Source: Variovorax sp. WDL1 | GTDB lineage: Bacteria; Pseudomonadota; Gammaproteobacteria; Burkholderiales; Burkholderiaceae_C | Assembly (NCBI RefSeq): GCF_001541225.1 | Contig: NZ_LMTS01000025.1 | Coordinates: 63,585-127,584, forward strand | DNA length: 64,000 bases | Direction of reading: 5' to 3' | In this document: piece after piece, positions 4,467-39,956 of the stretch | How the letters are laid out: every line of letters starts with the position of its first letter | How positions within the stretch are numbered: the stretch's first letter is position 1 | Translations under genes and position numbers: made by a program | The notes under the pieces: model-generated | Told to the model about the DNA's origin: nothing | The model's database searches: none | What the model saw: the letters and a program-made list of their open reading frames with translations, nothing else

Positions 4467-4600
4467 TTAAAGCTCCTTGCTTCGTTGAGGTGATGTGTTT
4501 GCAAACACGCGCTCGAGAGCCGGAGCCGTTGGTTCAGGCAGCGAGTGCCTACCGTATAGCGATGGGTTTATACAACCCGGAAGTTTTTTCTGAGCTAGCG

Positions 4601-5185
4601 CTATTCGCTTCCCGTCTCGTCCGACGATAGGGAAAAGACGAGTTGTTTCGGCTTGGCCGGAGAGGCCTGCGCTTGACGAATAGGCGAAGTGGCGGCGGCG
4701 GTGGGGGTTCCATCCGCGGTGCGGCGAATACCGCGCTGCGCATCGACATAGTTCTGGAAGCCCCACCAGAAGCCGATGACGTCGCTGGCGTACTTGTGGC
4801 CGATGCGATAGCGGTTCGGCGTCCAGTTGTTGGGCCCAATGTTGTAGGCCACGATGGCGTTGAACCAGTCGCGCTTCTTGTTGAAGTTGTCGCGAATGAT
4901 GTAGGCGCTCGCGTTGATGTTCGTGCAGAAGTCGTCGCGCAGATGCTCCTTCCTCAGGCCGAACTTGGCGAAGTACTCGACCCACTTCGTGTTGACCTGT
5001 GCGGGGCCGAGGTCGAAGCTTCCGTCGCGATTCTTGCTGCTCGCGCCGACCCGCCCGTTCTCCTTTCGAAGAATCGCGTGCAGGAGTAGCTCCGGTACGT
5101 CGTAACGCAAAGAGGCCTGTGCAGCGCACTGCACGGCCTCTCGCGTGACATGGGCGTACGGAGGCAGCGACGGAATCCCGTCCAT
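4601..5185 (-). CDS. VirB1/TrbN-like lytic transglycosylase
   Basis: The protein has 194 residues of soluble lytic transglycosylase fold. The likely catalytic glutamate is E42 (ILRKENG), followed by the family motifs DLGPAQVN (usual form GxMQ/N), the NINASAYII helix and AYNIGPNNW (usual form AYNxGxG). Such enzymes cut peptidoglycan locally so that the secretion channel can pass. No clear signal peptide is seen, so export may need another route or a different start. The C-terminal 50 residues are Ala/Pro/Ser-rich. It lies 15 bases after the preceding minus-strand gene and upstream of traA. Confidence 0.85.
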   Translation of the reverse strand: MDGIPSLPPYAHVTREAVQCAAQASLRYDVPELLLHAILRKENGRVGASSKNRDGSFDLGPAQVNTKWVEYFAKFGLRKEHLRDDFCTNINASAYIIRDNFNKKRDWFNAIVAYNIGPNNWTPNRYRIGHKYASDVIGFWWGFQNYVDAQRGIRRTADGTPTAAATSPIRQAQASPAKPKQLVFSLSSDETGSE

Positions 5186-5200
5186 GGCCCAGGTCGGGGT

Positions 5201-5560
5201 TTACTCGGCGGCGGCTGCGGCGGCCTCCGCCGGCGTGCTCGGTTCGTCCAGGATGAACACGCGGTCGGCGACCAGCTCGTTCGAGAGGAACTGGTCGGCG
5301 TCCAGGGTCTTCACGACACCTTGGATGTGGCCGTTGATTTTGACGGTCTGGCCGACCTTGAGGCGGTCCTGCAGCTTCGGGAAGCGGTAGTTGGGGATGC
5401 GAACTTGGCCGGCGTTGATGAAGTCGACGACACCGCCGCTTTGTTCGCGCACCGGGCCCCACTGCACCATAAGCACAGCGCTGGCGCCCTTCTTGGGGTC
5501 CTTGGGGGTGGACACCGTAATCTTGCGGATTTCACCAACGATGAAAAGGTCGTGAATCAA
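5201..5560 (-). CDS. Conserved hypothetical, possibly OB-fold protein
   Basis: The protein has 119 residues and starts at a TTG placed six bases after a strong AGGAG (5566-5570 region, minus strand); no in-frame ATG precedes the first conserved strand. The sequence alternates hydrophobic and polar residues (MIHDLFIVGEIRKITVS, then VGQTVKINGHIQGVVK), resembling an OB-fold single-strand-binding protein such as SSB or PriB, and ends in an Ala/Glu tail. I do not recognise the family with certainty. It is tightly linked to the VirB1-like gene (15-base gap), so it is probably part of the transfer region. A CTATAG motif lies 70 bases upstream. Confidence 0.65.
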   Translation of the reverse strand: MIHDLFIVGEIRKITVSTPKDPKKGASAVLMVQWGPVREQSGGVVDFINAGQVRIPNYRFPKLQDRLKVGQTVKINGHIQGVVKTLDADQFLSNELVADRVFILDEPSTPAEAAAAAAE

Positions 5561-17732: not shown

Positions 17733-19433
17733 TTAACCGAAGGTCTCAACCAGCAGCTGGACGTTGGTTTCGTCGTTGAAGCTGTTGGCATCGAGCTTGT
17801 ATGCCAGCTTGAGCTCCGAGCCCTTTTGCGGCGGCGCGTCAGTATGGCGAAATTTCACAGCGCGAAACTTTCGGCCGTCCTTTTGGAGCAACATGCTCAT
17901 GTGCTTGCCGCCACCGATGGAGCGAGCGTCGAGGACCTGGAACGCGTCGTAGAAGGTGGGTTCCGGGAATGCCTGGCCCCATACTTGCTCCTTGAGAATC
18001 GCGACCGTTTCGAGGCTCATCTCGTTCGCCTCGAGCGCACCATCCACCAGCAGGGTTTGCTGGAGGTCAGCGGCGGTCAACATTTCTCGCGCAACCTTTT
18101 CGAAGGCCTCTGCAAACTCAGCCAGGCCGCCGGCGCGTACTGTCACGCCAGCTGCCATCGCGTGCCCCCCGAACTTCGGGAGGAGGCCCGGATGCCGACG
18201 GTCGACCAGGTCGAGCGCGTCGCGCAGGTGGAAGCCGGGGATTGAACGGCCGGACCCCTTGAGCTCACCGTCCTTGCCTGAGGCGAGGATGAACGTGGGG
18301 CGCCAGATACGTTCCTTGAGTCGGCCAGCGACGATTCCGATGACGCCTTGATGCCAGTCCTCGGCGTGCAGGACGGCCGTATAGCGGTCCGCGCGGACGT
18401 CCGTGAGAAGGCGGCGAACGGCTTCGTCCGTCATGTCCCCTTCGATTGCCTTGCGGCGGTCGTTGATTCCGTGCAGCTCCTCCGCCAGCGCCTGGGCTCG
18501 TGCCACAGAATCTGTGGTCAAGCATTCGACGCCGGCGTCCATCGACTCCAGGCGCCCGGCCGCGTTGATACGCGGGCCGATGCCGAAAGCGATGTCACTG
18601 GTAGCCAGCATGCGCGGGTCCTTGCCGGAGACTTTTGCCAGGAAATCAACGCCGGGGAACGAGTGGCCGGCGCGAACGCGAAGCAGCCCTTCGTTCACCA
18701 GAATGCGATTGTTCGTGTCCAGCGCCACCACGTCCGCCACCGTTCCGATGGCGACGATGGGGAGCAGCGAGTCGACCGAGAATTCCGGGTCCGCCGAAAC
18801 GATACCGCGCTCGAGGAGTTCGTCCTGCAGCGCCCACATTACGTACCACATCACCCCGCAGCCCGCGAGGGCCTTGGAGGGGAAAGGGCAGCCGTGCTGG
18901 TTCGGATTCACGATGCACAGGGCATCCGGATGGGTCTCGCCCGGCAGATGGTGGTCGGTGACCAGCACTGGAACGCCGAGGCGATTGGCTTCCTCGATGC
19001 CCGCGTGGGATGCGATGCCATTGTCCACCGTCACCAGGTAGTCAGGCTTTGGTTCAGCCGAACAGGCAATCCGGGCGATGGCAGGCGTGAGGCCGTACCC
19101 GTGCTCGATTCGGTTCGGGATGATGAAGCCGACGTTTGCGCCGAACGCCCGCAGTGCGCGAACGCCCACCGAGCACGCGGTGGCCCCGTCCGCGTCATAG
19201 TCGGCGACGATGAGCAAACGCTTCTTCTCCACGATTGCGTCAGCAAGCACTTTGGCCAATGCTTCGGCACCCAGGAGTTGGGAGTAGGGGATGAGCGCGC
19301 TTAGGCCGGTCGACACCTCAGCGGTGTCGGTAATGCCCCGCGACGCTAGGACGCGGGCGAGCACTGGGCTCATGCCGGAGCGGATGAGCTTCAGCACGGT
19401 GGAAGGTGGAAACCTTCGTTCTTCGATGTCCAT
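17733..19433 (-). CDS. recJ: RecJ single-stranded-DNA exonuclease
   Basis: The protein has 566 residues, close to chromosomal RecJ (about 570). DHH-family motifs are present: VADYDADG (76-83), VTVDNGIASHAG, VTDHHLPG, then GTVADVVALD, and the DHHA1 part with ILASGKDGELKGSGRS and FGGHAMAAGV. RecJ degrades ssDNA 5' to 3' in recombination and mismatch repair. A plasmid copy is unusual. A GCTATAC motif lies about 35 bases upstream of the ATG (19465-19470, minus strand), and a T-rich hairpin terminator follows the gene, so it is probably its own transcription unit. Confidence 0.92.
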   Translation of the reverse strand: MDIEERRFPPSTVLKLIRSGMSPVLARVLASRGITDTAEVSTGLSALIPYSQLLGAEALAKVLADAIVEKKRLLIVADYDADGATACSVGVRALRAFGANVGFIIPNRIEHGYGLTPAIARIACSAEPKPDYLVTVDNGIASHAGIEEANRLGVPVLVTDHHLPGETHPDALCIVNPNQHGCPFPSKALAGCGVMWYVMWALQDELLERGIVSADPEFSVDSLLPIVAIGTVADVVALDTNNRILVNEGLLRVRAGHSFPGVDFLAKVSGKDPRMLATSDIAFGIGPRINAAGRLESMDAGVECLTTDSVARAQALAEELHGINDRRKAIEGDMTDEAVRRLLTDVRADRYTAVLHAEDWHQGVIGIVAGRLKERIWRPTFILASGKDGELKGSGRSIPGFHLRDALDLVDRRHPGLLPKFGGHAMAAGVTVRAGGLAEFAEAFEKVAREMLTAADLQQTLLVDGALEANEMSLETVAILKEQVWGQAFPEPTFYDAFQVLDARSIGGGKHMSMLLQKDGRKFRAVKFRHTDAPPQKGSELKLAYKLDANSFNDETNVQLLVETFG

Positions 19434-19699: not shown

Positions 19700-20215
19700 A
19701 TGCACTTTGGCGTTTTTGTCGGAATCTTGCTCGCGTTGGCCCTCGGCGCGTTGGTCGCGGTCGGCTACCGCCGACACCTGGCCACTCGCGAACTTCGTGT
19801 GGGGCGCCATGGCTTTACCCGCCGGCCGCTTCTGACGGGGAACGAAGTCGATTTCTTCCGAAAACTGCAGCGTGCGCTTGGCTCGGAGTTCCAGGTTCTT
19901 CCCCAGGTGTCCATGGGCGCTGTGATGGCCACTACGCTCACCCCGGAGCACCCGGACTACTGGGCGGTGCGCGAAAGCTACGCCTCTAAAATCATCGACT
20001 TCGTGGTCTGCGACCCAAAACACTTTCAGCCTTTGCTGGTCGTGGAGCTAGACGACCGGATGCACGACTTCTCAAAAGACCGGACCCGTGACTCCCTCGT
20101 CGCTCGCTGCGGCCTCCGGACGGTTCGGTTCTGGTCGCGGAAGAAGCCGGACATCGCCACGCTGCGCGTGGAACTCCACCGTCATCTTGGTCACGCCGTC
20201 TCTAAAACGCATTGA
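19700..20215 (+). CDS. DUF2726 protein, membrane-anchored, nuclease-fold
   Basis: The protein has 171 residues. One N-terminal membrane helix (about 3-22) is followed by a basic linker and a domain starting LLTGNEVDFFRKLQRAL, with the strand pair IDFVVCD and PLLVVELDDRMHD, and then LRTVRFWSR. This is the DUF2726 pattern, distantly like restriction-endonuclease folds (D...E-x-D arrangement). Whether it is catalytic is unknown. It directly precedes, and its stop overlaps, the -35 box of the promoter of the Rad50/Mre11-like operon. Confidence 0.75.
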   Translation: MHFGVFVGILLALALGALVAVGYRRHLATRELRVGRHGFTRRPLLTGNEVDFFRKLQRALGSEFQVLPQVSMGAVMATTLTPEHPDYWAVRESYASKIIDFVVCDPKHFQPLLVVELDDRMHDFSKDRTRDSLVARCGLRTVRFWSRKKPDIATLRVELHRHLGHAVSKTH

Positions 20216-20240
20216 CGCCTAGTTACGATTTAGCTATAAT
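20212..20240 (+). promoter_or_regulatory. Strong sigma-70-type promoter of the Rad50/Mre11-like operon
   Basis: TTGACG (20212-20217) and TATAAT (20235-20240) are separated by exactly 17 bases. The expected transcription start, near 20247, is about 20 bases ahead of the ATG at 20266. It is the best consensus promoter in the window. Confidence 0.8.
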
Positions 20241-20265: not shown

Positions 20266-20682
20266 ATGAACAACAGCCAGAACCAGGAACTGCACGCCGT
20301 CCTCAAGCGGTTCGACCCCGACACCCTCGTCGAGACGGTTCGAGAACTCGGCGAGGACTGGGCGAAGGCCAATTCCTCCGCTTCGTCGCTCGAAGAGACC
20401 AGAAAAACACTACTGGCCAAGCTGACCCGCGAGTACATGAACAACGGGTTGCGGAGCGGTGCCGCCGGCGAGCGAGCGAAGTCGGTGTCCGTTTCGTCAG
20501 CCGAGCAATCGGCGCTTGCCGATGAGCGCTACGAGCAGCACCTGGACCTGATGGTTCAAGCGCGCGAGTACTCCGATATCACCCGGGTCCGATACGACAT
20601 GGGAAAGATGCGGCTTGAGCTGATGCGCTCGCAAATGGCTACCGTCCGCCAAGAGATGAGCTTCTCTCGCTTCGCGACCTGA
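20266..20682 (+). CDS. Small helical protein, first gene of the Rad50/Mre11-like operon
   Basis: The protein has 138 residues, almost entirely predicted helix with heptad-like spacing (LEETRKTLLAKLTREY, YEQHLDLMVQAREYS, RYDMGKMRLELMRSQ). The pattern resembles small coiled-coil proteins seen in phage recombination modules, though I cannot name the family firmly. The ATG at 20266 is preferred to 20212 because the latter lies within the promoter -35 box. It is followed after 47 bases by a second coiled-coil gene. I infer a structural role alongside the Rad50-like ATPase. Confidence 0.7.
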   Translation: MNNSQNQELHAVLKRFDPDTLVETVRELGEDWAKANSSASSLEETRKTLLAKLTREYMNNGLRSGAAGERAKSVSVSSAEQSALADERYEQHLDLMVQAREYSDITRVRYDMGKMRLELMRSQMATVRQEMSFSRFAT

Positions 20683-21023: not shown

Positions 21024-21038
21024 TTAAGGGTGCCCTCG

Positions 21039-23009
21039 ATGACATTGAACGCGCCAGAACTCCGCCAACGGGTCCAGGGTACCAGCCTGCGCGCCGCTCA
21101 ACTCAACGGCGTGCTGACCGCACAAGCTGCTCGCAAGGCTGAATTGCTTGAGTCGGTCGCCGCGGCGAAGGCCCGTCAAGGTCTGGGGGACGAGGTCAAG
21201 CGCGTCTTCGAGGCGCTTCAAACGAAGGCTCACGAGCGCAGCGTGGGAACGTTCGACCGGCTGCTCACCGCAATCCTTCAAGATGTCATGCCTGACGAGG
21301 GCAGCATCCGTCTGCTGCCGAAGTACCGGGACAACACGACCTGGCTCGACGTGGCCCTGGAGAAGAACGGCCATCTGGAAGACATCCTTGATGGGAATGG
21401 CGGCGCGGTCACCAATGTCGTCAGCGCCGGCCTCCGCTTTGCGGCGCTCACCCGCACCAAGAACCGCGGCCTGATGGTCTTGGATGAACCAGACTGCTGG
21501 ATTCAGCCGGAGCGCATTCCGGCGTTCATCCGAGTCCTAGCCCAGGTTGCTGAATCCGCAAAGGTGCAGACCTTTTTCGTCTCCCATTTCGACAAGCCGG
21601 AGTCGTATTCCGGCCTGGTGAACGTTGTCCGGCTCGTTCGCGGTGCCGATGGCAATCCGGCTGCCGATGTGAACAGCATCGTCAAGCACCAATGGGAGAA
21701 CGATGAGGTCCCGGGAATCCGGGCCATCGAGCTTTTCAACTTTCGCGCGCACGTGCACACGACCATCCCGTGCTTCCCGGGCGCTACCGCTCTGGTCGGC
21801 GGGAACAACCTCGGCAAGTCCACCGCCATCACAAGCTCGCTGAAGGCAGTGGCCTATGGCGAGTCGGACGATTCGATGGTGCGCCATGGCTGTGATGAGG
21901 CGCGTGTCATCCTGCACCTGGAAAAGGGGCAACGCATCGAGTGGGTGCGCTCTACCAAGCGCTCTCCCGCCGTCATGTACCGCCTGTACCAGGGCACCGA
22001 ACTTCTCCACGAGGGTCGCCCCAAGGCCCGGAACACTGCGCCTGAGTGGGTGACGGAAGTTCTTCGGGTTACGAAGCCGGACGACCTGGACATTCAAATC
22101 GGTAGCCAGAAGAACCCGGTCTTCCTCCTCAACGAGACGGCTTCCCGGCGCGCTCAAATCCTTTCGCTCGGTCGTGAATCCGGCCACCACAAGGCGCTGA
22201 TGCGCCTCTATGAGGGCATCCGGACCTCGGACGGCGAGACCGTCAAGCGTGGCGAGCTCGAGCTCACCCGGCTCACGTTCAACCTGGACCGGATGACGCC
22301 GGTGCCCGGCCTGGTCGAGAAGCTGGATGCGCTGTCTGCGACGGCCAACGAGCTGGCCGACTACCTTGCGAAGCGCGAGCGCATTTCCTCCCTTCTTGGC
22401 CGCATCGAAGAGGCCGCCTCGAAGCTGTCTATCGCTCAGCAGGAATTGTCGGCTCTTGACGGTCTCCCCGAGCTCCCGACGCTTGTTGACACGGCCAAGC
22501 GCAAGGCCCTGGCCGACGCCATCGAGCGTAGCCAATTCCTGGTGAACACCCTCAAGGTGCCGGAAATGGCAGACCTGCCCGACCTTGCTGACATGTCGAG
22601 GGCAAAGACGCTTTTGGACACCATCGAACGTGGCCAATACCTGCTCGAGAAGATTCAGGTTCCTACGCTCCCGGAGCTACCCGTTTTGACGGACACCGCC
22701 TCTATCGCGGCACTGGGCGTGCGGCTCACAGGCAGCATCGCGAAGCTTGCCGCCATGGAGTCGCTGCCCGAGCTGCCTGCGCTGCCGACGCTCAAGGACT
22801 TCAGCGGCATGCACCGCGCCATCGAGACCATCTCGGAGACCGAAAGCCGGTTGGCTGCTGCTGTGGCCGAAGTTGCTAAGGCGACCGCCGAAGAAACCAC
22901 CGCTCGCGACGAGTTCGAAAGCCTAAAACAAGCCCTGGGTGTCTGCCCGCTGTGCGATTCGCACCTGGCCACCCACACAGGAACAGACCATGCACATCAC
23001 GCCCACTGA
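21039..23009 (+). CDS. Rad50/SbcC-like ATPase with circularly permuted domain order
   Basis: The protein has 656 residues. Domain order: N-terminal helices (about 1-80); a lobe with a signature-like stretch (GNGGAVTNVVSAGLRFA, about 119-135), Walker B LMVLDEPD (145-152), and switch histidine FVSHF (H183); then, from about 228, the lobe that is normally N-terminal (IRAIELFNFRAH..., Walker A GGNNLGKST at 254-262, Q-loop-like QIGSQKNPVFLLN at about 353-365); then about 230 residues of helix with four LPxL-type breaks; and a CPLC hook (636-639) 17 residues from the end. Classical Rad50 runs Walker A, coil, CxxC, coil, Walker B. The ATG at 21039 is favoured over GTG 21030 by AAGGG spacing. The gene overlaps the Mre11-like gene by 20 bases. 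Confidence 0.85.
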   Translation: MTLNAPELRQRVQGTSLRAAQLNGVLTAQAARKAELLESVAAAKARQGLGDEVKRVFEALQTKAHERSVGTFDRLLTAILQDVMPDEGSIRLLPKYRDNTTWLDVALEKNGHLEDILDGNGGAVTNVVSAGLRFAALTRTKNRGLMVLDEPDCWIQPERIPAFIRVLAQVAESAKVQTFFVSHFDKPESYSGLVNVVRLVRGADGNPAADVNSIVKHQWENDEVPGIRAIELFNFRAHVHTTIPCFPGATALVGGNNLGKSTAITSSLKAVAYGESDDSMVRHGCDEARVILHLEKGQRIEWVRSTKRSPAVMYRLYQGTELLHEGRPKARNTAPEWVTEVLRVTKPDDLDIQIGSQKNPVFLLNETASRRAQILSLGRESGHHKALMRLYEGIRTSDGETVKRGELELTRLTFNLDRMTPVPGLVEKLDALSATANELADYLAKRERISSLLGRIEEAASKLSIAQQELSALDGLPELPTLVDTAKRKALADAIERSQFLVNTLKVPEMADLPDLADMSRAKTLLDTIERGQYLLEKIQVPTLPELPVLTDTASIAALGVRLTGSIAKLAAMESLPELPALPTLKDFSGMHRAIETISETESRLAAAVAEVAKATAEETTARDEFESLKQALGVCPLCDSHLATHTGTDHAHHAH

Positions 23010-23994
23010 GCAACGCAGCTTCAACGGCATCCTGTTCATAGGTGACCCTCATGTTACCTCCAAGCGACCTGGGCGCCGCAAGGATGACTATCTGGCATCC
23101 GTCCTCGCGAAACTCGAGGAATGCGCCGAAATCTGTGACGACTATGGCCTGCTGCCGGTCATCCTGGGCGACCTGCTGCATCGCAGCGATGACAACAACC
23201 TGCGCATGCTCAACCGCCTGATGACCGTCTTGAAGCGCTTCCCGGTGCCGCCGCTCACGCTGGAAGGCAACCACGACAAGGAAGAAACCTCGTTGACCGA
23301 GAGCGATGCGCTGTACTTGCTGGCGCAGGCCGGCGCCGTGCACGTGCTGGAAACGGCCGGACTTGTCGGCACATTCGATGTCGCGGGCCAACCTGTGCGG
23401 CTCTTTGCGGCACCTTACGGCTCGGCCATTCCACGGAGTGTTCCGGAAGGGGAGGGCACCGCTGTGCTCATCACGCACCACGACTTGGCCTTCGATGGCG
23501 CCTACCCAGGCTCGCTGCCAATCGACCCTGTTGACGGCGTCATGATGGTCGTGAACGGCCATATGCACGACACGAAGCCCAGCGTGATTGCTGGCGCCAC
23601 CACTTGGCACAACCCGGGGAACATCGAACCCCTCTCCGTCGACCTGGCACATCACGTGCCGAAGGTGTGGCTGTGGTCGCCGGGCACGGGAAATGGCGCC
23701 GAACTCACCGGCATCGAACTCAAGCACGGGACTGACCTCTTTGACCTCACCGGTCTGCAGGTTGCCCCTTCTGACGCCAACGCGGCAGTTGCGGCCCTGC
23801 CGAGCACCAGTAAGTTCGCGGCGCTCATCACGGAAGAGGCGAAGGCAGATGTTGATGCGGAGCGCACTGACGACGCCTCCATCCTGCATGGTGACCTGAC
23901 GCAGATTTTCGGCGCCGGCGCCATCTCGGACGCGACGCAGCAACTGCTTCTGGGCCTTTTGGGCCAAGTTCGGCAGGACGCCATGTCCTTGTGA
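22990..23994 (+). CDS. Mre11/SbcD-like metallophosphoesterase nuclease
   Basis: The protein has 334 residues with the calcineurin-like phosphoesterase motifs in order: GDPH (18-21), ILGDLLHR, GNHD, THHD and NGHMHD. Mre11/SbcD nucleases process DNA ends as a complex with Rad50/SbcC. The ATG at 22990 is chosen; an upstream frame from 22939 would lie entirely within the ATPase gene. It overlaps the end of the Rad50-like gene and is the last gene of the operon, ahead of a strong hairpin terminator. The C-terminal 90 residues would be where an Rad50-binding segment is expected; I do not recognise motifs there. Confidence 0.87.
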   Translation: MHITPTEQRSFNGILFIGDPHVTSKRPGRRKDDYLASVLAKLEECAEICDDYGLLPVILGDLLHRSDDNNLRMLNRLMTVLKRFPVPPLTLEGNHDKEETSLTESDALYLLAQAGAVHVLETAGLVGTFDVAGQPVRLFAAPYGSAIPRSVPEGEGTAVLITHHDLAFDGAYPGSLPIDPVDGVMMVVNGHMHDTKPSVIAGATTWHNPGNIEPLSVDLAHHVPKVWLWSPGTGNGAELTGIELKHGTDLFDLTGLQVAPSDANAAVAALPSTSKFAALITEEAKADVDAERTDDASILHGDLTQIFGAGAISDATQQLLLGLLGQVRQDAMSL

Positions 23995-24048: not shown

Positions 24049-24073
24049 AAAAGCCCCTCGTGGAGGGGCTTTT
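24049..24073. terminator. Bidirectional terminator between the Mre11-like gene and thyA
   Basis: AAAAGCCCCTC (24049-24059), GTG loop, GAGGGGCTTTT (24063-24073): a perfect 11-bp stem with A-run and T-run on the two sides. It serves the convergent transcripts. Confidence 0.9.
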
Positions 24074-24099: not shown

Positions 24100-25092
24100 T
24101 TACGCGGCCATATCGAGCTTGATTGCAGGATGGCACTGATAGCCGACCAACTTGACATCCTCGGGGTCCAAGCGCGCAAACACGCCAGGAATTTCATCGA
24201 CTGAGTTCAGCCTCGGGATATTGCCCAAGTCCAAGGTTGGCTGGGGAAAGTGTTCGCGGGACAGCAGCTCCTTGACGCCCGGAATATGCGGCACATAAAT
24301 GTGGGCGTCACCGATAAATTGGGTCATGGTCCCCGCTTTACGTCCAGAGAGCCGCGCCATGATTTCCAGAAGCAGTGCGCCAATTACTAAATTAAAGGCC
24401 AATGCGGTGTCAAAACTTCGCTGAAAAAAGCACATGTGCAGCGTGTTGCTTTCCGTGTCGACCAAGAATTGATAAAGAACGTGGCAGACGGGAATTGATG
24501 TCTGGTCATGCTCGTCCGGTCGCCAGCCATTTATTATTATGCGGCGGTCCGTCGGATTGGTCATGATGGCTTTGAGCGCCACCTCCAACTGGTTGATTCC
24601 CCGACGCATCACCCAGACGTTGCGAGCGGCGTCATGGGCACGAACCTCGTAGCCAAGCGCTATCAGCTCGTCGCATTCCTTTTGCGAATTGACCTCCCGC
24701 CAATCCCGGCAATCGGTCCATTGTTTTGGGTATGAACGCCCAATATCGTCTTCGCCAGTTCTGTGCTTGTTTGCTAGCCACGATGGCGTGATATTGGCAT
24801 TGCCGTCCCACACTTTGCATCCGAGCTCCCTGAATTGAGCAGCGCTCGTAAAACCTCGGAAGAAACCAAACAGTTCGCCCTTCGCAGTTTTCCACGCGAG
24901 CTTCTTGGTGGTAATTGCGGGGAAGCCATCCGCCATGTCGAATTTCAATGTGACGCTGGGCACGAACAGCGTGTCGATGCCCGTGCGGTTTGGCCGCAGG
25001 ACGCCTTCGTCGAGAATGCGCGACAGCATGTCGTGAAACTGCTGCATTGGGTGGGGCTTCGCAGCCACTGCGGGTGAAGTCGTTTCAGTCAT
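24100..25092 (-). CDS. thyA: Thymidylate synthase (ThyA family), divergent
   Basis: The protein has 330 residues from the ATG at 25092; a longer frame to 25173 adds 27 unconserved residues. Motifs: NRTGIDTLFVPSVTLKFD (R36 region, phosphate binding), GELFGFFRG, GRSYPKQW, DRRIIINGWRP, catalytic C203 in IPVCHVLYQF, QRSFD, FN (N234) and GDAHIYVPH. The enzyme would convert dUMP to dTMP with methylene-tetrahydrofolate. The conserved QRSxDxxLGxPFN loop is two residues shorter here (QRSFDTALAFN), and about 25 residues are inserted near DWREVNSQKE. The DNA is locally more AT-rich than its neighbours, suggesting separate acquisition. Confidence 0.9.
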   Translation of the reverse strand: MTETTSPAVAAKPHPMQQFHDMLSRILDEGVLRPNRTGIDTLFVPSVTLKFDMADGFPAITTKKLAWKTAKGELFGFFRGFTSAAQFRELGCKVWDGNANITPSWLANKHRTGEDDIGRSYPKQWTDCRDWREVNSQKECDELIALGYEVRAHDAARNVWVMRRGINQLEVALKAIMTNPTDRRIIINGWRPDEHDQTSIPVCHVLYQFLVDTESNTLHMCFFQRSFDTALAFNLVIGALLLEIMARLSGRKAGTMTQFIGDAHIYVPHIPGVKELLSREHFPQPTLDLGNIPRLNSVDEIPGVFARLDPEDVKLVGYQCHPAIKLDMAA

Positions 25093-25170
25093 ATATTCGT
25101 TGATTTGATGTGGCCTGTTGAGACACAGTGTAGGGAACTGCCATCCGGCAACCTGCTTTAGCGCCGACCA

Positions 25171-25207
25171 CAAAAAGAAGCTCGGCCGGACGTGAGTCGG
25201 GCCGAGC
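25171..25207 (-). terminator. Terminator of the lytic transglycosylase gene
   Basis: On the minus strand GCTCGGCC (25200-25207 arm) pairs with GGCCGAGC (25180-25187 arm), followed by TTCTTTTT. It lies about 20 bases beyond the stop at 25225. Confidence 0.8.
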
Positions 25208-26119: not shown

Positions 26120-28078
26120 ATGACGCAACGTCAGTACAACGAATCCGCAATAAAAATTTTAGAGGGCCTCGAGCCGGTCAAGCTTCGTCCAAGCCAGTTC
26201 ACCCGCACCGAAGACCCCTTGCACATCGTGCAGGAGTGCATCGACAACGCAATCGACGAGGCCATCGCTGGCTACGCGAAGACGGTGAGTGTTGAACTGC
26301 TGCCGGAGGGCTTCGTGCGCGTGGCGGACAACGGTCGCGGCATCCCTGTCGGTCTGCACCCGGAGAAGAAGATTCCGGTCGTCCAGGCCATCTTCACCGT
26401 CCTGTACTCTGGCGGCAAGTTCGACAAGACCTCCGGGGGCGCATACAGCTACGCCGGCGGTCTCCACGGCGTGGGCGTCTCGGTCACCAACGCACTTTGT
26501 GAGTCCCTGACCGCCTCAGTGGTTCGTGACGGAAAGCGCCACGAGATTTCTTTTGCCGACGGCGACGTGGTGAAGCCACTCTATATGGTCGGGAAGGAAG
26601 AGGGGACGGGCACGACAATCACGCTGAAGCCCAATCCGAAGTACTTCACATCGGCCGAGCTGCCAGTCAAGGTTCTGCGCGAACTGCTCAAGACTAAGGC
26701 GGTCTTGCTTCCAGGGCTCGAGGTGCGCTTCACGGACGCTCGCCAGGGCCCTGATTCTTCCAAAGAAGAAGTTTTCCGCTACGAGGACGGTCTCCCGGCA
26801 TACCTCACGGAGTTGGCGGGCGACGAGCCGCTGACGCCCTTGTTGGTCGGCAAGGTCTACGCCGGCGCAGACGACGAAAACTTTGCGGAGGGCGAGGGCG
26901 CTGAGTGGGCCTTCTCCTGGTACGAGGGCGGCGATGGGAGAGGGCGCTCCTACGTCAACCTGATTCCGACCCCCCTTGACGGCACCCACGTGACTGGTCT
27001 GCGCTCGGCGGTCTTCAACTCCATCAAGAGCTTTGCCGAGCATCATTCGATGCTGCCTAAGGGCTTGAAGCTCACGGCTGATGATGCATTCCGGTCCGTC
27101 AAGTTCGTGCTGTCTGCTCGCATGTTGGACCCCGCGTTCGACAACCAGACCAAGGACCGGCTGAATTCCCGGGATGGCGTCAAGCTCCTCGAGCGCATGG
27201 CCCAACCGAGCATCGAGGCCTGGCTGAACCTGAACCCTGTACACGCGAAGGCAGTGGCAGAGCTGGTCATTCGCCATGCTCAAACCCGCACGCGCGCTGC
27301 CAACAAAGTGGAGCGAAAGCGCGGCAGCTCCGTGGTCATGCTGCCCGGGAAGCTGGCGGACTGCGAGAGCCAGGACTCGAGCATCACCGAGCTTTTCCTG
27401 GTCGAGGGCGACTCAGCCGGGGGGTCGGCAAAACAGGCCCGGGAGCGGCACTTTCAGGCAATCCTGCCCCTGCGCGGCAAAGGGCTCAACACCTGGGAGG
27501 CCGACCAGGCGACCGCGCTGGCGAACACGGAAATCCACGATATCTCCATCGCCCTCGGCGTGATGCCCCACAAGCGCTCCGACGTCGTTGACTTGACCAA
27601 GCTCAGGTACGGCAAGGTTTGCATCCTCTCCGACGCCGACGTCGACGGCAATCACATTCAAGTGCTGCTGCTGACGCTGTTCTTCAAGCACTTCCCCCAG
27701 CTGGTCGACAAGGGCCACATCTATGTGGGGCGCCCGCCGCTTTACCGCATCGACGCGGACGCCGCGGGCAAGAAGCGCGGCGCGAAGAAGTTGTATGCCA
27801 TGGACGAGGCCGAGCTCAACATGTTCGAGGAGCGGCTGCGCAAGGAGGGGTACACGAAGACCCAGGTGAGCCGCTTCAAGGGCCTGGGCGAAATGGACGC
27901 GCCGGAGCTGTACGAAACGACGCTCCGTATCGATACCCGCCGCCTGCTCAAGGTGCAGCTGCCGGCGGAACAGTTGGGCGACGCAAACCAGATGTTCGAA
28001 CAGCTCATGGGGAAGAAGAACCCCGCTTGGCGCCGAGAGTGGATGGAACGACGCGGCGACGAGGTCGACAGCTACTGA
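26120..28078 (+). CDS. parE: Topoisomerase IV subunit B (ParE)
   Basis: The protein has 652 residues, close to E. coli ParE (630). GHKL ATPase motifs: [19 protein letters not shown], and [16 protein letters not shown]. The TOPRIM region has [22 protein letters not shown] and [11 protein letters not shown]. ParE supplies ATP hydrolysis and the TOPRIM metal site for decatenation of DNA circles. It is followed by parC after a 55-base gap, giving a complete enzyme on the plasmid. The short ParE-type length and absence of the long GyrB insert favour ParE over GyrB. Confidence 0.93.
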
Positions 28079-28133
28079 CGACTGGCGGCCGCCCACCCAA
28101 CCTCGAGCCGCCGGCACGGCCGGCGCGACCTGC

Positions 28134-30419
28134 ATGAAAGCATCAATGGAATCGAACGACGAACTCATCATTCACGACTGGGCTGAGAACGCATACCTCG
28201 AGTACGCGCTTCAGACCGTCAAGGGCCGCGCCCTCCCAGAGGTACGTGACGGCCAAAAGCCAGTGCAGCGCCGCATCCTCTTCGGGATGCTGGAACTGGG
28301 TCTTTCCGGCCCGGCGAAGCCGGTCAAGAGCGCTCGCGTCGTGGGCGAGGTGCTCGGTAAGCTGCACCCCCATGGTGACAGCGCGGCCTATGACGCCATG
28401 GTGCGGATGGCACAGGACTTCACCCTCCGATATCCGCTCGTCCAAGGGCAGGGCAACTTCGGTTCCCGTGACGGCGACTCCGCTGCCGCGATGCGGTACA
28501 CCGAGTCCAAGCTGACGGCGATTTCGGAGCTCCTGCTGTCCGAACTGCGGCTCGGGACCGTCGATTTCGTCGACAACTACGACGGCACGCTCAAAGAGCC
28601 GCGTTACCTCCCTGCCCGCCTCCCATTCACTTTGCTGAACGGGTCCAAGGGCGTTGCGGTTGGCCTGGCCAACGACATCCTCCCGCACAATCTGCGAGAG
28701 GTCGCCAACGCAGCAGTGGCGGTCATCGAGAATCCGGACGTCACAGTCTCGGAGATTCTGAAGCTCATCCCGGGCCCGGACTTTCCGGACGGGGCGCAAG
28801 TCATCAGTTCCGCCGCAGACATCGAGGCCGCATACACCTCCGGTCGCGGAAGCCTGCGTTGCCGTGCCGTGTGGAGTCGAGAGGACCTGGCACGTGGGCA
28901 GTGGCAGGTCATCGTCTCGCAGCTCCCCTACCAGGTCTCGGTGAAGACAATCATGGAGGAAATCGAGACCCTTACCAACCCGCAACCCAAGGCCGGCAAA
29001 AAGACCATCGACCAGCGCCAGGCCAACCTGAAACAGGTCGCGCTTGACTTCCTGGACACGGTTCGCGACGAGTCGGGCAAGCTGGCACCCGTACGCCTGG
29101 TGATTGAGCCGAAGAACTCGAAGGTCGACCAGGAACAGATGATGGCCTTCCTCCTGGCCAACACCAGCCTCGAGGCGTCGGTGACCGTGAACATGACCGT
29201 CATCGGCATCGACAACCGGCCTCAGACGAAGGGTATCGATGCACTCCTGAAGGAGTGGGCCGAGTTCCGGATGACCACCGTGCGCCGGCGCACGCAGTTC
29301 CAACTGGACGGAGCGAACAAGCGTATTCACATCCTCGAGGGCCGCATGGTGGTCTTCGTGAGTCTGGACCGTGTCATCAAAATCATCCGAGAAGCGGACG
29401 ACCCGGCGGCTCAACTGAAGGCGGAGCTTGGCCTGAGTGACATCCAGACCACGGACATCCTGGAGATGCGCTTGCGGCAGCTCAACAAGCTGGAAGGTTT
29501 CAAGCTGGAGAGCGAGCTGGACGAGCTCCGCAAGGAACGCACGCGGCTCGAGGCGCTGTTGGCGTCCGACCCGGCAATGCGCCGCATGGTCATCTCTGAA
29601 ATCAAGGCCGACGCTGCGAAGTACGGCGACGACCGCCGGACCCTGCTGCAGCCCGCTGCACGCGCAGAGGCAGGCGTTTCCTCGACGGTGAACCTGCCGG
29701 ATGAGGAAATCACGGTCGTTCTGTCCCGCAACCTCTGGCTCAAGGCCTACAAGGGGCACGACGTGCCGCCGGAGGCCTATGTGCTCAAGCAGGGCGATTC
29801 GGTTCTCGCGATGGTCAAGACCCGCACGGTTTCGACGCTTTACTTGCTCGACTCGAACGGCCGCGCCTACAGCCTGCCGGCAGGAGGCGTTCCGAACGGC
29901 CGCGGCGAGGGTGCCCCTCTCTCGGCCTCCATTGACCTGCAGGCCGGCGCACGGGTTGTCACGATGCTGGCTGGTGCCGACGACGACCGCTTCATCTTCG
30001 CTGGTGCGCTTGGCAATGGCTACGTTGCACCGCTCAAGAGCCTCGCCTCGCGCCAGAAGGCCGGCAAGGTGTTCCTGAAACTCGCCGACGGGGAGGCGCC
30101 GATGCCACCAGTCGCAATTCCGCAAGACGACACAGGGTTCGTGGTCTGCGGTTCAACGGACGGGCGGATGCTCGCCTTCCCGCTGGCCGAAGTCAAGACG
30201 CTGCCCGCCGGTGGAATGGGTGTCATCCTCATGGTGCTGGGCAACGACAAGCTCTCCGCGCTCCTGCATACGGCTGACGCTCCTTTCGAGGGCAAGGGCC
30301 TGGCGAACGGAAAAATGGTTGATATCAAGCTGAAGGGGGACGATTGGACCCGCCACGTTCTGCACCGGGCTCGCAAGGGGGCCCAGCTGCCGAAAAAGGC
30401 GGTTCTCCAGCCCATCTGA
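28134..30419 (+). CDS. parC: Topoisomerase IV subunit A (ParC)
   Basis: The protein has 761 residues (E. coli ParC 752). The catalytic tyrosine is Y122 in MRYTESKLT. The quinolone-determining region reads [12 protein letters not shown], with S83 at the usual Ser80 position and D87 in place of Glu84. The C-terminal domain from about 510 has beta-pinwheel blades ([44 protein letters not shown]), fewer than GyrA and without a clear GyrA box. The start could be 28134 or the ATG at 28146. With ParE it would decatenate the plasmid or chromosome. Confidence 0.93.
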
Positions 30420-34299: not shown

Positions 34300-36864
34300 A
34301 TGGACTTCTCGAGTCTGTATACGCGAGTGCGCTCGCAGTCCGCGCTCAACCGCTTCACGGCAGACGCCAAGCGCATTTCCGAGGGGGAGTCATCTCTCAC
34401 TTCCCTGCCCGCAGAGGAGCTCAAGGCGCGGTTCCTGGCCCTGCGCGACCTTCCCGAGCCCAAGCGCACTGTGCCCGGGTTCGCGCTCGCGCGAGAAGCC
34501 GCACGCCGCGCGCTGGGTTTGCGGCCGTTCGACGTCCAACTGATTGGGGGCTTGGCCCTTTTGCAAGGCAAGCTTGCTGAAATGCGCACGGGTGAGGGGA
34601 AGACCCTCACACTCGTGGCGCCCGCGGCACTGCTTGCCCTGCAGGGCAAAGGCGTCCATGTCGTGACTGCGAACAGCTATCTGGCCCGCCGGGATGCGGA
34701 ACTGATGCGTCCAGTCTTCGAAGCCCTGGGCCTTTCTGTAGCGTTCATCGAGACCTCGCAGACGTCGGCTGCGAAGCGGGAAGCCTATGCAGCGGACGTC
34801 ACGTACGGGGTGGGCTTTGAGTTCGGCTTCGACTACCTTCGCGACAACATGGTGAGCGACGCCGGTGACAAGGTACAACGCCCGCTGTCGTTTGCTATCG
34901 TGGACGAAGTCGACTCGGTTCTCATCGACGAGGCACGAACGCCGCTCATCATTTCCGGCTCGGGAGACTCGCAGGATGCCATCGTTCGCGCGCTCAACCT
35001 GACCGCTCGCCAGCTCAAGAGCGGCGTCGACTACGTGGTGGACCCCAAGGAGCGCAACGCCACGCTCACCGAGCGCGGCTACGACGAGGCCGAAGCGAGC
35101 CTTGCGAAGCAAGGCATCATCGCGGGCCAAGGCGAGCTCTACGCTGCCCACAACCTGCACATTGCGCGTCGCCTGCATTCCGCTGTGCGCGCCCATGGCG
35201 TGTACCGCCTTGACCGAGACTACGTCGTCTCTGCCGGTGAGGTGGTCCTGGTCGACCAGGGGACCGGTCGAAAGATGCCGGGCCGTCGCTTGGAGGATGG
35301 GCTGCACGAAGCAATTGAGGCGAAGGAAGGGCTGGAAATCCACGCTGGTTCCGTCACGCGTGCGACTATCACGTATCAGAGCTTTTTCGGCCTCTACGAG
35401 CGCCTGGCCGGCTTGACCGGCACCGCGCTCACGGAAGCTGAGGAGTTCACCGAGTTTTACGGCCTCGAGACCGTGGTCGTTCCTACCAACCGACCTGTGG
35501 CCCGCATTCTCAAGGAGGACCTGGTCTACCTTGGGAAGTCTGCCAAGTTCGTCGCTGTGGCGGACGAAATTGTTCGCAGGCAAGCGTCAGGCCAGCCCGT
35601 GCTTGCGGGGTGCGCGTCCGTTCGCGACGCGGAAGTGCTCAGCCGCCTGCTTGAGAGCAAAGGCGTGGTGCACGAAGTGCTCACGGCGAAGCACCTCGAG
35701 CGAGAGGCCCACATCATCGCCCAAGCCGGGCGTCCTGGCGCCGTTACGGTAGCGACGAACATGGCCGGGCGGGGAACCGACATCATCCTGGGTGGCGAAA
35801 AGCCATCAGAGGGCGACTTCACTGACCCTGCGGCCTACGCACACGGTAAGGCGCAGTGGGAGTCCGCCCGTGCTGCCGTTCTTGCAGCGGGCGGCCTGTT
35901 CGTCCTCGGTACCGAGCGCTCAGGCATCCGCCGGGTGGACAACCAACTGGCCGGCCGCTCCGGGCGCCAGGGCGACCCTGGCGAGGTTCAGTTCTTCCTG
36001 AGCTTGGAAGACGAGCTCCTGCGGGTGTTCGGGCAGTCCAGGCAGCTGAAAGTCGTCGCCAAGCTCATCGACGGCGCCGGCGGCGTCCTTAGCGGCAAAA
36101 CCATCGCGAAGCTTGTGACTACCGCGCAGCGAAGCCTTGAAGGGCAGGGCTTCGAGGCTCGCCGGAATGTCATGAAGTACGACAGCTCGATGTCGGAACA
36201 ACGCAAGGCCGTTTACGCCCTCCGTGACAGCCTGCTCGCTGACGGCGTCATGGAGTACTGCGAGGCAGCGGTTGACGCGGCTGTCGCCAATTGGGCAAAC
36301 GTTCGGCTTGGCGTGCACGACATGCCTGAGCAGTGGGACCTGCCCGCGCTAAAGCGCGAACTGGAAGCTGATTTCAACATCCAGCCCGGCCTGGTCGGCT
36401 GGGTTCACAGCGAGGACCTGGGTCGCGACGAGGTGGTCGAGCGCATCCGCGCCGCTGTCCAGGCACGGCTCGCAGCCAACCCGCTCGACACCGCCGCGCG
36501 CCGCCGGCTGGTACTCAGGGTGCTGACAGACCTCTGGACCGAGCACCTGACTGCACTTGACGAGCTGCGCCAAGCTGTTTCTCTTAAGGGCGCGACCGGA
36601 CAGAACCCGCTCTTCCAGTTTCACAACGACGCGTTCGCGCTTTTCAAGTCGTTCGAGGAAGCGCTCTGCGCAGAAATCTCGCGGCAACTTCTTTCCTCGG
36701 CCCTGCAAGAGGAGCGCGAGGCGAAATCTGCGGACGCCGACGAGCAGGCTCGCAAGGCCGCCCGGGTAGCCGTGGAGCTCGAGCAACGGTGGGTCAAGCG
36801 CAATGAACCCTGCCCCTGCGGCTCGGGAAAGCGCTTTAAGCACTGCCACGGAAAACTGCGGTAA
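34300..36864 (+). CDS. secA: SecA preprotein translocase ATPase (plasmid copy)
   Basis: The protein has 854 residues (E. coli SecA 901). Motifs: MRTGEGKT (95-102), DVTYGVGFEFGFDYLRDN, AIVDEVDSVLIDEARTPLIISG (DEVD 202-205), ATNMAGRGTDI, GTERSGIRRVDNQLAGRSGRQGDPG (usual ERHESRRIDNQLRGRxGRQGDxG), and a C-terminal zinc-binding CPCGSGKRFKHCHG (about 838-851). It drives protein export through SecYEG. Changes at normally invariant spots (YGVGFEFG for YGTNNEFG; no HES in the RIDNQL box) suggest a specialised paralogue. It is co-transcribed with the small gene upstream. Confidence 0.92.
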   Translation: MDFSSLYTRVRSQSALNRFTADAKRISEGESSLTSLPAEELKARFLALRDLPEPKRTVPGFALAREAARRALGLRPFDVQLIGGLALLQGKLAEMRTGEGKTLTLVAPAALLALQGKGVHVVTANSYLARRDAELMRPVFEALGLSVAFIETSQTSAAKREAYAADVTYGVGFEFGFDYLRDNMVSDAGDKVQRPLSFAIVDEVDSVLIDEARTPLIISGSGDSQDAIVRALNLTARQLKSGVDYVVDPKERNATLTERGYDEAEASLAKQGIIAGQGELYAAHNLHIARRLHSAVRAHGVYRLDRDYVVSAGEVVLVDQGTGRKMPGRRLEDGLHEAIEAKEGLEIHAGSVTRATITYQSFFGLYERLAGLTGTALTEAEEFTEFYGLETVVVPTNRPVARILKEDLVYLGKSAKFVAVADEIVRRQASGQPVLAGCASVRDAEVLSRLLESKGVVHEVLTAKHLEREAHIIAQAGRPGAVTVATNMAGRGTDIILGGEKPSEGDFTDPAAYAHGKAQWESARAAVLAAGGLFVLGTERSGIRRVDNQLAGRSGRQGDPGEVQFFLSLEDELLRVFGQSRQLKVVAKLIDGAGGVLSGKTIAKLVTTAQRSLEGQGFEARRNVMKYDSSMSEQRKAVYALRDSLLADGVMEYCEAAVDAAVANWANVRLGVHDMPEQWDLPALKRELEADFNIQPGLVGWVHSEDLGRDEVVERIRAAVQARLAANPLDTAARRRLVLRVLTDLWTEHLTALDELRQAVSLKGATGQNPLFQFHNDAFALFKSFEEALCAEISRQLLSSALQEEREAKSADADEQARKAARVAVELEQRWVKRNEPCPCGSGKRFKHCHGKLR

Positions 36865-38729: not shown

Positions 38730-39411
38730 GACCCTTTTGCCGAGATACCTCGCCGCCACGCTGGTAGCCCTGGCCTGCACAGGTGGTGCACTTGCCGCCG
38801 AGGTTGAGCGGAATCCGTTCAACCCCTCGCCATCCGCGAATACACCGCAGTCCGAGTCGCAGGCTCCAGCCGGTAAAGGCACGCTACCTCAGGGCCTTCC
38901 AGCTTTGCGCCTGCCGCCCCCAATCCCCACGGTCGAGGGGCGAGCGGTACTGCCTCCCGTTTTGCCTCCCTCGCTTCCTCCTCCGCCGCTACCAACTGCC
39001 AATGCGGCCCCGGCTGGTGCCGACCAACCGTCGCCAGGCAGTGGCTCGCGCCGCGTGTTCCTGAATCAACAGGAACTTCAGGCCCAGCGCAGCCAGTGCG
39101 ACATCTCGCGCAAGGCGAGCGGCACGGAGGCTGTTTCCCCTGCCGGCGGCACGGTGACGCTGCGCTATGTCGTGAGCAATGGCCGGGTATGCCTTTCAGG
39201 CGCAGCTTCCGACTCGACCTGGGCCAACGTGAGCCGCGCTGACGAGAGCCAGGCGTCCGTGGTCATCGAACCCAACGACAGCGCTACGCCTCGCGAAACC
39301 ACGGTCACCGTCGTCTCCCGCAATGGTCGTAGTGCCGCTTTTCGGATTTCTCAACCCGCCGGCAACGGCTTCCGCGCAATCGAGCCGCAACGCACGGCTA
39401 CCTCGCCATGA
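38728..39411 (+). CDS. Exported Pro-rich protein with BACON-like domain
   Basis: The protein has 227 residues. A signal peptide (LLPRYLAATLVALACTGGALAA) is followed by NPFNPSPSA, a Pro-rich linker (about 45-105), and a C-terminal domain (about 125-215) of alternating strands with AVSPAGGTVTLRYVVSNG and W..VS....... VVIEPNDSATPRETTVTVVS, as in BACON/Ig-like binding domains. It is probably periplasmic and envelope-associated. The longer frame to 38599 lies inside the M23 gene and is rejected. It overlaps the following kinase-like gene by four bases (ATGA). Confidence 0.75.
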   Translation: MTLLPRYLAATLVALACTGGALAAEVERNPFNPSPSANTPQSESQAPAGKGTLPQGLPALRLPPPIPTVEGRAVLPPVLPPSLPPPPLPTANAAPAGADQPSPGSGSRRVFLNQQELQAQRSQCDISRKASGTEAVSPAGGTVTLRYVVSNGRVCLSGAASDSTWANVSRADESQASVVIEPNDSATPRETTVTVVSRNGRSAAFRISQPAGNGFRAIEPQRTATSP

Positions 39412-39956
39412 AGGTTATCAACCTGTTCGCAGCACCCGGGATTGGCAAGTCCACCTCCGCACAGATTCTCACTGGCCTCCTGTCCATCGGTGGCTACCGA
39501 GTCGAGTACGTTCCGGAGTTCGCCAAATTCCAGACCTTCTCGGGGAACCAGGCCGCCTTGAGCGACCAGGTGTACATGTTCGCCAAGCAGGAGAACCGGC
39601 TCCACGTGTTCAAGGACCAAGAGTTCGATTTTGTGGTCATGGACGGTCCGCTGCCTATCGCGCTGCTGTACACGCCCGAGACCTACTTCAAGTACTACGA
39701 GCCGCTCGTCATGGAGGTCTTCAGCTCCTTCGACAACGTCAATTTCTTCCTGGACCGAAACCCCTCATACGAGCACAAGAAGCACGGCCGCATCCAGGAC
39801 CGTGCGCAGTCCGACGCTCTCTCTCTCCGGCTCGAGGCCATCCTGTCACGCCACAAGGTTCCGCTCACCCGCGAGATGGTGCGCCCCCAACTACCGCTTG
39901 TGCTCTACGAAGCCTTGACAGGGGCAAAGCCGCCCTCACTTGAAGACCTGGCCTGA
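39408..39956 (+). CDS. P-loop nucleotide kinase-like protein (AAA_28/NadR-like)
   Basis: The protein has 182 residues. Walker A is FAAPGIGKST (about 7-16). A Walker B-like FVVMDGPLPIAL follows, with a lid-like segment FFLDRNPSYEHKKHGRIQDRAQS containing several Arg/Lys. The pattern resembles phage nucleotide kinases and the NadR kinase domain; the substrate cannot be read from sequence. It overlaps the exported-protein gene by four bases, so expression is coupled, and a hairpin terminator follows. Confidence 0.72.
   Translation: MKVINLFAAPGIGKSTSAQILTGLLSIGGYRVEYVPEFAKFQTFSGNQAALSDQVYMFAKQENRLHVFKDQEFDFVVMDGPLPIALLYTPETYFKYYEPLVMEVFSSFDNVNFFLDRNPSYEHKKHGRIQDRAQSDALSLRLEAILSRHKVPLTREMVRPQLPLVLYEALTGAKPPSLEDLA

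Follow-up and report, generated by a model that had tools for sequence, protein, structure and literature searches.

The window, meaning the whole 64,000 nt stretch of DNA analysed, comes from Variovorax sp. WDL1 (assembly GCF_001541225.1, contig NZ_LMTS01000025.1, positions 63,585–127,584, forward strand). It contains a conserved unit that comprises, from 5′ to 3′, genes for a small helical protein, a permuted ATPase of the Rad50 type and an Mre11-like protein. The features of this unit and its flanks are as follows.

20212..20240, forward strand: sigma-70-type promoter-like site, TTGACG-17-TATAAT (11/12); weak, with one site found and 0.8 expected in shuffles
20266..20682, forward strand: hypothetical protein, encoded upstream and in the operon's orientation; start taken from RefSeq WP_068673601.1
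20730..21023, forward strand: helical 97 aa protein 's', small and hairpin-like, with the loop LGTDD
21039..23009, forward strand: circularly permuted Rad50-type ATPase, 656 aa from ATG
21039..21683, forward strand: arm helices and Rad50 C-lobe (residues 1–215)
21711..22166, forward strand: Rad50 N-lobe (residues 225–376), with Walker A at 254–261 and Gln357
22173..22457, forward strand: outgoing arm, helices 379–418 and 422–473 of the structure model
22458..22802, forward strand: short helices with Leu-Pro-rich loops (residues 474–588), of low confidence (10-residue blocks of pLDDT 38–75)
22944..22955, forward strand: CPLC (residues 636–639), a zinc-hook homologue by profile matches, followed by a His-rich tail
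22990..23994, forward strand: Mre11/SbcD-like metallophosphoesterase with five motifs, overlapping the ATPase gene; RefSeq start equivalent to 22990
24049..24073, no assigned strand (listed for the reverse strand): GC-rich inverted repeat with A and T flanks, a possible bidirectional terminator; four such sites found and 5.0 expected in shuffles

An alternative GTG start at 21030 would give a 659 aa ATPase; the RefSeq start of the near-identical Variovorax WDL1 gene is equivalent to 21039. The promoter-like site is aptly placed ahead of the operon. Neighbouring genes encode RecJ, ParA/ParB, a DUF2726 protein, thymidylate synthase, topoisomerase IV B and A subunits and a helicase-like protein. 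The genes for RecJ (17733–19433) and thymidylate synthase (24100–25173) lie near those for topoisomerase IV (26120–30419, forward strand), and the DUF2726 gene (19700–20215, forward strand; E 3.1e-22) lies upstream of the operon. Similar-looking genes to the latter and to the hypothetical gene at 20266..20682 occupy the same places in an Agitococcus locus (L028).

A conserved circular permutant of Rad50

Rad50 is regarded as one chain in which a long coil, folded as a hairpin and bearing the hook at the tip, connects two lobes. The sequence and predicted structure of the window ATPase place the C-lobe first, followed by a linker, the N-lobe, an arm and a CxxC motif. Within the C-lobe are a signature-like GG (residues 121–122), Asn126, Walker B (145–152, with D149/E150) and a switch His183. 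The preliminary description had proposed this order, with the signature-like GG, Walker B and His ahead of Walker A, a helical arm and CPLC, and the analysis confirmed it with the motifs at the same positions.

Both lobes match halves of Rad50, the N-lobe with Walker A and the C-lobe with Walker B and a switch His of the Rad50 type, and the N-terminal part is thus a Rad50 C-lobe, as first proposed, and not an unrelated ATPase domain. The N-lobe alignment pairs residues 227–424 of the ATPase with 3–217 of SbcC. The strong Rad50 matches were obtained from profiles built with relatives, including relatives in which the lobes are split; the window ATPase alone gave weak matches to solved structures (SMC6, E 0.003; Rad50, E 0.22 over residues 231–274). 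In hhalign comparisons, the C-lobe was not aligned to five SbcC sequences and the hook alignment had a probability of 17. Curated cut-offs were not reached for NF003034 (25.2 bits vs 700) or PF13476 (22.1 vs 27).

A plasmid search gave 23 matches, of which 15 were examined (H2–H4, H14–H16, H20 and H21 were not taken). The resulting alignment (A1) has 13 rows, consisting of the window protein and 12 plasmid proteins, and excludes one near-identical locus (L009) and two split loci (L020 and L021). GTDB genomes were scanned from a single Walker B pattern, derived from this alignment of the permuted family; the scan returned 62 loci and, owing to its seed, is uninformative on the frequency of split forms. 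Homologues with the same order were found in all 13 alignment rows and in 60 of the 62 GTDB loci, where Walker B lies ahead of Walker A in a single ORF. The two remaining loci (L087 and L088) have the C-lobe alone, and L088 is cut by the contig end. A frame or sequencing error joining two genes is ruled out because the fused order is conserved across these sets, and so, by the match of the lobes to Rad50 halves, is a pairing of two unrelated ATPase domains. The window therefore carries a real, conserved circular permutant of Rad50.

The Ser of the ABC signature SGG was absent, being found before GG in one of 32 rows of a second alignment (A4) and in none of the 13 rows of A1. Its position is taken by Asn in 25 of the 32 rows and by Lys, Gln, Arg or Asn in the 13-row alignment, while the GG itself is kept in the alignment rows (one row, L011, is doubtful). 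Five residues beyond the first Gly, Asn is invariant (32/32 and 13/13); this site is Asp in two split rows and Ala in one. Replacement of the signature Ser by Arg disables Pyrococcus Rad50. Given the absence of this Ser, ATP coupling may differ in the permuted family.

Hook and chain ends

The CPLC motif lies 17 residues before the C-terminus of the ATPase. The hook part of the profile matched the Rad50 hook structures 6zff (E 4.3e-7) and 1l8d (E 4.9e-5), and the stretch that best matched the Rad50 model NF003034 was 594–649 of the 659 aa form. Both C636 and C639 are invariant in the 32-row alignment. Three of the 60 permuted GTDB ORFs run past the contig end; all 57 complete ones end in CxxC, with the first Cys 12–32 residues from the C-terminus. 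An HxH motif follows CxxC in 57 of 70 cases and at least two His are present in 65 of 70, the His content being 13% in the tail vs 2.4% overall. These residues make it possible that a zinc site forms inside a single chain, at the CxxC and the HxH tail.

The preliminary description had also held that the termini of each chain meet at the zinc hook, which was not supported. In the predicted structure, the N-terminus is separated from the head by two helices (residues 5–48 and 50–83), a span of about 80 residues. The CPLC end is about 260 residues past the N-lobe (helices 379–473, the low-confidence short helices and a helix at 589–633), so the N-terminus is unlikely to reach the hook. Most of the returning coil is absent from the ATPase chain. 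Helices 5–83 could pair with 379–473 in the model to form the arm.

The small protein and the Mre11-like partner

A small ORF, missing from the preliminary description, lies directly upstream of the ATPase gene in all 14 plasmid-type loci, that of the window among them, and in all 60 permuted GTDB loci; these putative counterparts were identified by position and loop motif (the motif is missing in L013). The adjoining gene that overlaps the ATPase gene was found to be, as had been described, Mre11-like with all phosphoesterase motifs (GDPH, GDLLH, GNHD, THHD and NGHMH; 5/5). It matched the SbcD-like family phrog_100 (E 2.4e-8) and had no Pfam match at E 1. Among the 60 permuted GTDB loci, 57 contigs reach the partner gene and three end earlier. 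All five motifs are present in 50 of these 57 partners, the other seven having one changed motif (five partners), a masked stretch (one) or a cut end (one). As their genes adjoin, the ATPase and the Mre11-like protein may form a working Mre11–Rad50 complex, as had been proposed.

Distribution of the permuted ATPase

The permuted ATPase occurs on large plasmids of bacteria from soil and water. It is present at 99.8% identity, with the same RefSeq gene layout, in four plasmid records from Variovorax, each about 0.8 Mb long, and the window very probably belongs to a megaplasmid. The ATPase was present in three of 101 Variovorax genomes, the window's own included, and is accessory in this genus; in a sample of 369 genomes of the class, it was present in the window's own genome only. 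As read from record titles, hosts of the 60 permuted GTDB loci were Proteobacteria, with many Microvirga and Methylobacterium. A copy in Microvirga sp. VF16 (L048, 5001–6398) lies in a 5.4 Mb record titled chromosome, which shows that the permuted ATPase is not always plasmid-borne; given its recurrence in many species, it may be a settled chromosomal gene in Microvirga.

Elsewhere in the window, a gene at 34300–36864 (forward strand) encodes an 854 aa SecA-like protein with SecA domains throughout (best E 1.2e-101), located in what is probably a megaplasmid. Another at 45979–47256 (forward strand) encodes a 425 aa protein with WGR and PARP catalytic domains, an ADP-ribosyltransferase architecture like that of eukaryotes. 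The ORFs at 39323–39943 (forward strand) and 4467–5462 (reverse strand) have third-position GC of 0.39 and 0.45, the lowest two among the listed ORFs, and are possibly recent arrivals or non-genes.

Split relatives

Separate genes for the two lobes were found in all 27 viral contigs retrieved, in one cyanophage, in two megaplasmids of Firmicutes and in a metagenome-assembled genome (MAG). Cutting Rad50 at the hook, the operation from which the permuted order had been derived in the preliminary description, gives exactly the arrangement of these relatives, with N-lobe plus hook and C-lobe as separate genes. Bacillus phage vB_BboS-125 encodes the N-lobe with hook (471 aa), a helical protein of 78 aa, a C-lobe of 211 aa and Mre11 on separate genes, among which lie two others, one of them for an AP2-domain protein. 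The viral contigs were retrieved from IMG/VR with the C-lobe of this phage and are 27 close relatives that are not independent, one being the query phage itself. All 27 have the order N-lobe plus hook, C-lobe and an ORF with GNH[DE], the nuclease of L129 being doubtful (one of three motifs). A small gene lies up to 800 bp upstream of the C-lobe gene in 23 of the 27; one was also seen in L134, L135 and L136 and none was seen in L130.

In Aneurinibacillus, Mre11 is fused to the N-lobe with hook, and a small gene, a short annotated CDS and the C-lobe gene follow. Jeotgalibacillus has an Mre11+N-lobe fusion and a small gene, and its C-lobe gene (216 aa) is about 74 kb away on the same plasmid, so that the C-lobe is encoded in trans. 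Cyanophage Mvi-JY20 (L026) and the MAG (L087) share the order N-lobe, Mre11, small gene, C-lobe, with each gene overlapping the next. Microbacterium phage Magritte (L025, 284–934) has a C-lobe-like gene on its own, annotated 'exonuclease'; no N-lobe gene was seen among the first four genes translated.

The order N-lobe, small gene, C-lobe of the Bacillus phages is the linear order of ordinary Rad50. For this reason the small protein can be read as a detached piece of the returning Rad50 coil, which is possible, its role being guesswork.

Origin of the permuted order

The permuted operon (small gene, C-lobe+N-lobe, Mre11) is a cyclic rotation of the order N-lobe, Mre11, small gene, C-lobe in which the junction of C-lobe and N-lobe has been fused. 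Split ancestry with later fusion is the best reading of its origin. The starting state would have been a Rad50 split at the hook and encoded together with Mre11 by separate genes, in the order N-lobe plus hook, Mre11, small coil, C-lobe. Rotation of this operon, for which a tandem duplication followed by loss of the outermost copies is one route, would have brought the C-lobe gene ahead of the N-lobe gene, and the two would then have fused into the permuted chain. No leftover of a duplicated lobe was found in 72 loci.

Phylogenetic trees were reconstructed with 29 of 74 permuted rows, which were hand-chosen, as were the rows of alignments A6 and A7. The joint tree combined concatenated N- and C-lobes (44 rows, SbcC outgroup) and grouped the permuted rows with L087 at 98/98, the permuted rows alone being at 77/28. 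The N-lobe tree leaves L087 and permuted rows at an open fork (93/94 for the whole group). In the C-lobe tree, permuted rows are scattered, the long branch that carries ten split rows is next to Pseudomonas rows and the starred branches require at least two changes. A kinship of L087 with the permuted group is supported by the joint tree, which points weakly to L087 as its sister. The opposite direction of change, in which the permuted single chain is older and split forms derive from it or independently from ordinary Rad50, would suit the weak sister placement, the open fork and the position of the other split rows beside permuted rows on a long branch. However, split rows lie on both sides of the deepest fork of the outgroup-rooted joint tree, a single permuted clade was not rejected by AU tests (P=0.15 for the C-lobe and P=0.29 for the N-lobe), the Bacillus-phage order retains that of ordinary Rad50 and permuted forms were found only in hosts whose titles read as Proteobacteria. 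An older permuted chain is thus unlikely.

Proposed mechanism and role

In Rad50, the heads pair in an ATP-dependent manner and Mre11 is located at the arm roots. In the permuted family, the two lobes of one chain would fold in cis into a single Rad50 head. As is usual for SMC and Rad50 proteins, ATP would bring two heads together, and these would gate a dimer of Mre11 attached near the roots of the arms. The ATPase chain contains too little of the returning side of the arm, and the small protein would supply the rest. The system probably serves DNA end and hairpin processing or recombination in the replication and upkeep of very large plasmids; in the window, the most likely function is recombination linked to replication, or end processing, of the megaplasmid. 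Scans of the genome to which the window belongs returned no match for SbcD, and none for SbcC among the 10 of 82 candidates scored; within these limits, the operon may therefore encode the only Mre11–Rad50 pair there.

Seven of the 14 plasmid-type partners (four from Pseudomonas and one each from Vibrio, Alteromonas and Aeromonas) have none or one of the five catalytic motifs, yet the gene, its position and a conserved C-terminal Phe are all retained. The ATPase motifs are intact in these seven loci, which cluster in the joint tree (92/91, branch not starred), so the partner active site seems to have decayed in one lineage. As these partners are without the Mre11 active site, nuclease action is not a function common to the family, and a structural role fits this lineage. 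The same observations would favour an ATPase that acts as a structural SMC-like clamp or tether for megaplasmid DNA, with the nuclease-like partner mainly a binding subunit. For the family as a whole this is conceivable but doubtful, because the five motifs are complete in the other seven plasmid-type loci (window included) and in most GTDB partners, and their loss looks secondary and limited to one group. Much less probable is an anti-phage defence system of an ABC ATPase and a nuclease, like Lamassu, Septu/PtuA, Gabija or OLD. The window ATPase has weak partial PADLOC matches (NsnB, 3.7e-7; AriA, 2.7e-6; GajA, 5.2e-5), split N-lobes match LmuB more strongly (L024, 1.4e-14; L087, 2.9e-10) and Lamassu and PtuA structures are among the structure matches. 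However, the matches of the window ATPase mostly cover the common P-loop or Walker B stretch, and the Mre11-like and small proteins had no match at E 0.01 in the 2023 PADLOC library, in which no known anti-phage ABC-ATPase system was matched by both ATPase and partner. The neighbours are replication, partition and recombination genes, split forms are located in phage genomes and the accessory distribution in Variovorax fits a plasmid equally.

Taken as a whole, it is likely that the operon encodes an Mre11–Rad50-type machine with a permuted Rad50 ATPase, that it has a role in DNA processing or plasmid upkeep and that it arose by splitting, rotation and fusion.

Comparison with known systems and significance

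The window ATPase shares with Rad50/SbcC both ATPase lobes, Walker A, Walker B, the switch His, a CxxC end homologous to the hook and an adjoining Mre11-like gene. It differs in order, with C-lobe, N-lobe, coil and hook in place of the N-lobe, coil, hook, coil and C-lobe of Rad50, so that the hook is at the C-terminus rather than mid-chain and most of the returning coil is missing. In addition, the signature Ser is replaced, the Asn five residues after the first Gly is invariant and the operon has a small extra gene.

Fusion proteins of Mre11 and Rad50, sporadic and found on plasmids and viruses, have been described (Yoshida et al. 2011, PMC3175470). According to the part of that paper available, the fusions of Anaerostipes and Bacillus phage 0305phi8-36 lack one SbcC P-loop segment; they resemble the Mre11+N-lobe fusions in L020 and L021, and a separate C-lobe gene would explain the missing segment. 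The same part reports no separate C-lobe gene or permuted protein for these fusions, and 'permuted' there concerns the Mimivirus genome. The portions available of PMC7824862 and PMC3710099 contain nothing on permuted or split Rad50, and a search of the open literature returned no description of either form. Two phage families, PHROG 16465 ('exonuclease') and PHROG 15167 ('ATPase'), match the window N-lobe (E 3.5e-17) and C-lobe (E 1.3e-4), respectively, and are listed as two families, not as halves of one Rad50.

There is about an even chance that the following holds in full: phages and plasmids run Mre11–Rad50 as a multi-subunit machine, with N-lobe plus hook, small coil and C-lobe as separate chains, and in one lineage the operon was rotated and the lobes re-fused in reverse; the natural circular permutant formed in this way carries the hook (CxxC and HxH tail) at the end of its chain, and zinc might bind there within one chain rather than between two. 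If true, the natural permutant and the split forms show that connection of the lobes via the coil is not required in Rad50. The permutant joins the lobes in cis with no coil between them and leaves the end of the coil free; permutant and split forms are thus ready constructs for testing the function of coil and hook. The family also supplies natural variants of the signature Ser and, with the ATPase retained, partners that have naturally lost the Mre11 active site. Confirmation of the rotated operon would provide a clear example in which gene order, and not an event within one gene, gave rise to a circular permutation.
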